From contig NZ_CP087723.1 in NCBI RefSeq assembly GCF_024972735.1, positions 1,798,001 through 1,862,000 of the forward strand: a stretch of 64,000 bases of DNA, read 5' to 3'. The DNA is from Halalkaliarchaeum sp. AArc-CO. GTDB lineage: Archaea > Halobacteriota > Halobacteria > Halobacteriales > Haloferacaceae. Below the pieces are notes generated by a model. That model saw only the letters and a list, made by a program, of their open reading frames with translations. It was not told the origin of the DNA and did not search any database. A program made the position numbers and the translations under genes. Positions 23,149 through 25,560 of the stretch are shown piece after piece; position 1 is the stretch's first letter; every line of letters starts with the position of its first letter.

Positions 23149-24060
23149 TCAGCGATCGACGGCGACGCTCGTCTGCATCCCGTCGGTGTTGAAGGCACTA
23201 CCGGCCGCCGAGTCGTCGAGGACGATGATCCCCGCTCCCGACCCCGTGAGTTCCTCGAACTCCTCGATCGCCCGATCGGCCGCCGCTTGGGCGCTGTGAC
23301 CCTCTTCGAGGAGATCGACGGCCCGTCGCGAGAGCGTCACCCGGGCGATGTCCTCCCCCGCCCCAGTCGCAGAGGCCCCGCCGGCGGGCGTACAGTAAAA
23401 CCCGGACCCCACCTGCGGCACGTCGCCGACCCGCCCCGCGAGTGCGTACGATCGCCCGCCGGTCGAGGTCGCAGCAGCGAACGTCTCCCTGTCTGCGGCT
23501 ACGGCGCCGACCGTGTCGTGATCCGGCGCCTGTGTCGCGTCGGACTCGTCGCCTCCACGTTCGCCGGCCTGGTCGTCGCCGCCGCCGAACCGCGAATCCA
23601 GCCAGGCGAGTTGGTCGCGGGGGGAGCCGTCCGGTGGACTCTCGGACTCGAAGGACTCCCGTTTGTCGGCAGTCAGTAGATCCGTCTCGGTTCCGACGCC
23701 GAAGTCCGCCGCGAGATCGACGGCGTGAACGCCCGAAACGAGCACGTGGGGGGTCGCCTCGAGGACGACCCGCGCGACCGACACCGCGTGTTCGACCCCC
23801 GGCATCGAACACGCCGCGCCGACCTCGCGGTCCGATCGCATGACGCCTGCGTCCGTCCTGACGATCCCGTCGGCCTGTACAGCTCCCCCGACGCCGGCGT
23901 TGAACCGCTCGTCGGATTCGAGCACCCGAACGGCCGCCTCGACGGCGTCGAGCGGCTCCGGCGAGGACGCCCCTACCGCCGCCGCCTCGTCGAGTACCGC
24001 CTGTCGTTCCTCGGGTTCATCGGGCGTGCTCCCGGCGCCGCCGTGAACGATCACTCGCAT
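23149..24060 (-). CDS. Isoaspartyl peptidase / L-asparaginase (Ntn hydrolase)
   Basis: A 303-residue member of the N-terminal-nucleophile asparaginase family (IaaA type). The start [11 protein letters not shown] and [20 protein letters not shown] are family hallmarks. The autocleavage site is HDTVGAVA near residue 178, where Thr becomes the nucleophile of the beta subunit. [15 protein letters not shown] and GAGEDIAR follow. A long acidic loop of about 45 residues precedes the cleavage site. It hydrolyses asparagine or beta-aspartyl dipeptides. The start at 24060 gives the normal N-terminus. Confidence 0.9.
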
Positions 24061-24100
24061 GCCCGGGTGAAATCCGGGCGTCGCCTTAAGAACCCGGGAA

Positions 24101-24196
24101 GCGGTCAACTACCCCACCCTACTGCGCTCGGGCAGATGACCTGCCACTCGCTCGTTGAGGGTGGGGCCTCCGCCTTGAATTGGGTGAACCGACCGC
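24101..24196. repeat. Nested inverted repeat, possible orphan IS200/IS605-type end
   Basis: Three nested stems can be drawn: gcggtc (24101-24106) with gaccgc (24191-24196), ccccaccct (24112-24120) with agggtgggg (24158-24166), and ggcag (24131-24135) with ctgcc (24141-24145). The string cgctcgttgagggtgggg resembles, from memory, the ends of haloarchaeal IS200/IS605 (TnpB/IS1341-type) elements. No transposase or TnpB gene is next to it. It may be a remnant, a non-autonomous copy, or a structured leader of icd. Confidence 0.55.
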
Positions 24197-24263
24197 CGTG
24201 CCGTTCCAGTATTGTGAACTATCAACACGACAAGTGTTGTCATCATTCGTTGAAAACGGCAGT

Positions 24264-24270
24264 AACTTTA
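24264..24270 (+). promoter_or_regulatory. Possible TATA-like box for icd
   Basis: aacttta lies 28-34 nt before the icd ATG at 24298, downstream of the nested palindrome. Confidence 0.4.
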
Positions 24271-24297
24271 GGCCCCCCTCGGAAGCTTCGGACGTTC

Positions 24298-25560
<1,263 letters not shown>

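Follow-up and report, generated by a model that had tools for sequence, protein, structure and literature searches.

What is the palindromic sequence that separates two divergent genes in the window (the whole 64,000-nucleotide stretch of Halalkaliarchaeum sp. AArc-CO DNA that was analyzed), and is it a remnant of a mobile element, a guide RNA, or a leader for the adjacent icd gene? The sequence, which proves to be an 80-bp element, lies between an asparaginase-2 family gene (ATG at 24060, 44 bp away) and icd (ATG at 24298, 114 bp away), with an M24 peptidase gene as a further neighbor. The assignment of icd rests on TIGR00183, which fits the 420-aa form of the protein that starts at 24298. 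The icd frame nevertheless stays open upstream across the whole 80 bp (window 23725-25560, plus strand; 611 aa from a GTG), and this longer frame could mislead gene callers. We also observed an inverted repeat upstream of icd, CAACAC-GACAA-GTGTTG at 24223-24239, which is partly conserved in the only other genome of the genus that was compared (hereafter G001) and is a possible operator.

A preliminary description of the locus had reported three nested stems. The perfect 9-bp arms, spaced 37 nt apart, and the hairpin are indeed present, but the outermost stem (GCGGTC at 24101-24106 with GACCGC at 24191-24196) lies mostly in flanking DNA beyond the element and is probably a coincidence. Folding of the plus strand of the region gave -54.8 kcal/mol (z = -2.4 relative to shuffled sequences), and the corresponding z for the minus strand was -1.1. 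The window has no shortage of perfect 9-bp inverted repeats (40, as compared with a mean of 23 and a maximum of 49 in local shuffles), and the palindrome by itself is therefore weak evidence. The decisive evidence is the match of the sequence to the ends of a TnpB element, which far exceeds chance.

Positions 24104-24167 of the window matched C2:1650173-1650236 of the same genome (G000) with 97% identity over 64 bp (E = 2e-24), and positions 24149-24188 matched C2:1648682-1648721 with 98% identity over 40 bp (E = 6e-13). The two matches correspond to opposite ends of a single 1550-bp element (C2:1648687-1650236), in which TTCAC is followed by CCAATTCAAGGCGGAG..., then by tnpB, and finally by ...GTAGTTGAC. 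This IS1341-type element, whose relatives include sequences with 85% identity in another genome (G017) and 83% on a Salinibaculum plasmid, encodes an intact TnpB of 453 aa that scores 124.7 bits against the NCBIfam guided_TnpB model (cut-off 100) and carries the Pfam Cas12f1-like TNB domain. A TnpB elsewhere in the genome with the same end, which the preliminary description had proposed should be sought, thus exists. The element in the window has in common with it the TTCAC target, the left end, the palindrome arms, and the right terminus; it differs in consisting of the ends only, whereas the resident element has an intact tnpB and an omega-RNA scaffold. No TnpA gene stands beside the resident element, and, as had been described, inspection of the adjoining genes revealed neither a TnpA nor a TnpB gene beside the 80-bp element. 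Four TnpA genes are present elsewhere in the genome, one of which, at C2:730745, belongs to an element whose palindromes are similar and whose right end is TAGTTCAC; transposition in trans by a resident TnpA is possible.

Other sites in the two genomes deserve mention. Where the full TnpB element resides (L097, L039), G001 (C1:2491400-2492800, as compared with G000:C2:1648682) has approximately 850 bp between two TTCAC motifs that are missing from G000; this adjacent deletion, which ends exactly at TTCAC, possibly resulted from the action of the TnpB element or from recombination of two copies. At G000:C2:421558-422425 (L041) a left end of the same family (CTCAC followed by CCAATTCAAGG...) precedes not tnpB but two small genes that, judged by eye, resemble a VapB/VapC toxin-antitoxin pair, and no right end was seen there. 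Finally, a related TnpB element at G000:C2:236561-239184 (L042) is interrupted by approximately 1 kb resembling another insertion sequence.

The boundaries of the 80-bp element were revealed by comparison with G001, which shares the neighborhood but is without the 80 bp. With a slash marking the insertion point, the empty site reads ...GGTTCAC/CGGTTCCCGGG... (in a longer reading, ...GGTTCAC/CGGTTCCCGGGTTCTTAAG), and the minus strand of the window reads ...CGGTTCAC/80 bp/CGCTTCCCGGGTTCTTAAG. The alignment therefore places the ends of the element at 24183 and 24104. The target, TTCAC, is on the 5' side of the left end and has not been duplicated, as expected for the IS200/IS605 group. On the icd side, the flank beyond TTCAC (24189-24223) has diverged between the two genomes. 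The termini, CCAATTC and GTTGAC, are not inverted with respect to each other, and the hairpin is internal. The following features of a terminal-only PATE (palindrome-associated transposable element) of IS200/IS605 type were found: a near-terminal palindrome in place of terminal inverted repeats, insertion 3' of a fixed short oligonucleotide that is not duplicated, ends that match a TnpB element, and a length too short to encode a transposase. Thus, the empty site, the TTCAC target, and the same-ended TnpB element together bear out the earlier suggestion of a solo IS200/IS605 (IS1341/TnpB-type) element. The parts of the element are listed in Table 1.

Table 1. Positions in the window of the 80-bp element and its parts
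Feature	Position	Strand	Evidence
Complete fused (terminal-only) IS200/IS605-type element, 80 bp, CCAATTCAAGG...GGTAGTTGAC	24104..24183	-	Empty site in G001; same ends in resident full TnpB element and in second fused copy
Target/TAM-like pentamer TTCAC, flanking the left end, outside the element	24184..24188	-	Present in G001 empty site and 5' of full element; TCTCAC at second fused copy
Left-end-derived segment CCAATTCAAGGCGGAG	24168..24183	-	Identical to left end of full element C2:1648687-1650236
19-nt palindrome arm common to left and right ends of full element; fusion site	24149..24167	-	Arms at 16 and 1486 of 1550-bp element
Right-end-derived segment: inner hairpin, second arm, terminus GTAGTTGAC	24104..24148	-	97% identity to C2:1650173-1650236
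Hairpin arm CCCCACCCT	24112..24120	.	Folding and repeat search
Hairpin arm AGGGTGGGG	24158..24166	.	Folding and repeat search

How could an element consisting of ends only have arisen? The first arm, of 19 nt (GCCCCATCCTCAACGAGCG / GCCCCACCCTCAACAAGCG), and the second, of 12 nt (AGTAGGGTGGGG), are common to the two near-terminal palindromes of the full element. Deletion in silico of the 1550-bp element between its first arms yielded an 80-bp product identical to the element in the window at 78 of 80 positions, and deletion between the second arms yielded, except for a short loop segment, a second fused copy that is present in the same genome. This copy (L040:3333-3421, that is, G000:C2:2893332-2893420, minus strand) is 89 bp in length, follows TCTCAC, and has kept the loop of the left end; at the counterpart of its site G001 has 4.7 kb of other DNA between the flanks and no clean empty site. 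Since the two relics are explained by different pairs of arms, the deletions were separate, and such events have occurred at least twice. The arm in the window joins one base from the left end and one from the right in an order not expected from one crossover within the extant element; the true parent was therefore a close relative of that element. The search for additional copies that the preliminary description had called for yielded, besides the second copy in this genome, fused copies in a Halovenus MAG (L078) and in G057 (L021). A pattern scan of genome contigs gave 12 matches, of which only the one in the Halovenus MAG was haloarchaeal; the other 11 were bacterial and are taken as chance. 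No fused copy was found in viral contigs with the exact pattern, and plasmid records gave only partial matches, none covering at least 80% of the query.

We consider it probable that the 80 bp are the fused ends of an element of the IS200/IS605 group (IS1341/TnpB-only) that inserted, then lost its core, and persists as an inert relic. A full-length element would have inserted by the usual single-strand mechanism of TnpA, supplied in trans, and tnpB would subsequently have been lost by repeat-mediated deletion to leave a single hairpin. The element in the window retains the target site, the left-end foot of the hairpin, and the right terminus; gone are tnpB, the scaffold of the omega RNA, and the foot of the right-end hairpin (GACAA), and the element is therefore probably immobile and neutral. 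That the deletion took place at this locus we infer, as the exact parent allele was not seen here.

Scars of this type are already known in haloarchaea. Dyall-Smith et al. (2011; PMC3119063) described terminal-only PATEs in Haloquadratum, including ISHwa23 of H. walsbyi, in which a TnpB element of 1500 bp is reduced to 52 bp of fused ends via a 19-bp near-terminal repeat. The element in the window is a terminal-only relic of the same kind, with a near-terminal repeat of the same length, a short oligonucleotide target, and no target duplication, although it is 80 bp long, differs in sequence, and belongs to another genus, the likeness being one of description and not of alignment.

An alternative is that the fused form is itself a mobile MITE or PATE that transposed to this site as such, with TnpA acting in trans. 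The four TnpA genes of the genome, with one of them in an element bearing similar palindromes, are compatible with this possibility, as is the finding that the six ISHwa23 insertions peculiar to one Haloquadratum strain are all of the 52-bp form (PMC3119063). Against it, the two fused copies of the genome differ in which hairpin loop was retained, so that they are not copies of each other, and they alone matched the fused pattern among 170 genomes of the family. Moreover, the foot of the right-end hairpin, which is thought to guide right-end cleavage, has been lost. By eye, this foot is GACAA (GCAA once) in full elements that end in TTGAC, TTGAT, or CTGAC, and GAAA or CAAA in those that end in TTTAC; it resembles what we take, from IS608 and ISDra2, to be the right guide sequence, used by TnpA at the right cleavage site. 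The fused element bears the left-end foot GGAG in its place, and the usual right-end cleavage is therefore doubtful. Transposition of the fused form to this site thus appears unlikely, and our analysis favors an inert relic over an active MITE.

It had also been proposed that the locus gives rise to a guide-RNA-like transcript. In that case the 80 bp would be an orphan omega RNA for a TnpB encoded elsewhere, with its guide in the sequence from 24103 downwards. The right-end hairpin and terminus, beside which a guide would lie, are retained, and the intact resident TnpB has the same element ends, but the anatomy of full elements contradicts the proposal. We compared 43 full TnpB elements at their 3' ends (loci including L099-L129). 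A segment TCCAC..GACAA (or GAAA/CAAA) is present 5' of the right-end hairpin in 37 of them by a strict pattern, and the conserved foot is found in none of three fused copies. In 42 of the 43, the terminal nucleotides pair (at six or more positions, G-U allowed) with a segment located 119-176 nt upstream; at the exception (L100) the end was mis-called, and the true end pairs too. Ends and partners covary (GTTGAC with GTCAAC, GTTGAT with ATCAAC, GTTTAC with GTAAAC or GTAGAC, CTGAC with GTCAG, and GGTGAC with GTCACC), as expected of an omega-RNA pseudoknot. The mean number of pairs was 6.72, as compared with 5.35 when ends were swapped among elements (standard deviation 0.17; maximum 5.91 of 500) and 3.91 when the upstream region was shuffled, values that do not amount to a formal probability, since the elements are relatives of one another and three rounds of adjustment went into the end patterns. 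This pairing agrees with the pseudoknot seen in the structure of ISDra2 TnpB, which binds a 116-nt scaffold containing it (PMC10097598).

The 80-bp element lacks both the foot and, within its own length, the pseudoknot partner, because the scaffold was in the deleted core, and a functional omega RNA is therefore not expected from it. The flank does contain a partner of 7 nt, three of whose pairs are G-U, which is taken as chance. Only the 3' terminal hairpin and its position at the end are shared with the haloarchaeal sotRNA or omega RNA (RF02656, RF02657; PMC12558985), which, unlike the element in the window, has a scaffold and a pseudoknot partner. A search of the locus with Rfam gave only a weak and meaningless match, but this negative carries no weight, as Rfam also missed the full parent element; indeed, its models detected none of the three resident TnpB elements tried. 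We regard an orphan omega RNA as scarcely credible, and, judging from sequence, the element most likely makes no guide RNA.

Could the hairpin instead serve the adjacent genes, as a structured leader or regulatory hairpin for icd (also proposed in the preliminary description) or for the divergent asparaginase-family gene? It does lie in their shared upstream region, but the sister species (G001) is without it. The two promoters probably lie within the flanking blocks that are conserved in G001, 24060-24109 (88%) and 24224-24300 (96%); neither block includes the element, which is upstream of the icd-proximal one and probably outside both transcripts. A leader or regulatory hairpin is thus highly improbable, and retention of the fused hairpin for a local role, such as insulation or regulation between the icd promoter and the divergently oriented asparaginase promoter, is very unlikely.

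The relic shows a fate of TnpB elements: through repeated deletions of the core via subterminal palindromes, the nuclease disappears together with the scaffold of its guide RNA. The scars left behind resemble genes for structured RNAs, and pipelines that annotate orphan guide RNAs could mistake them for solo omega RNAs, from which the presence or absence of the pseudoknot and the foot distinguishes them.
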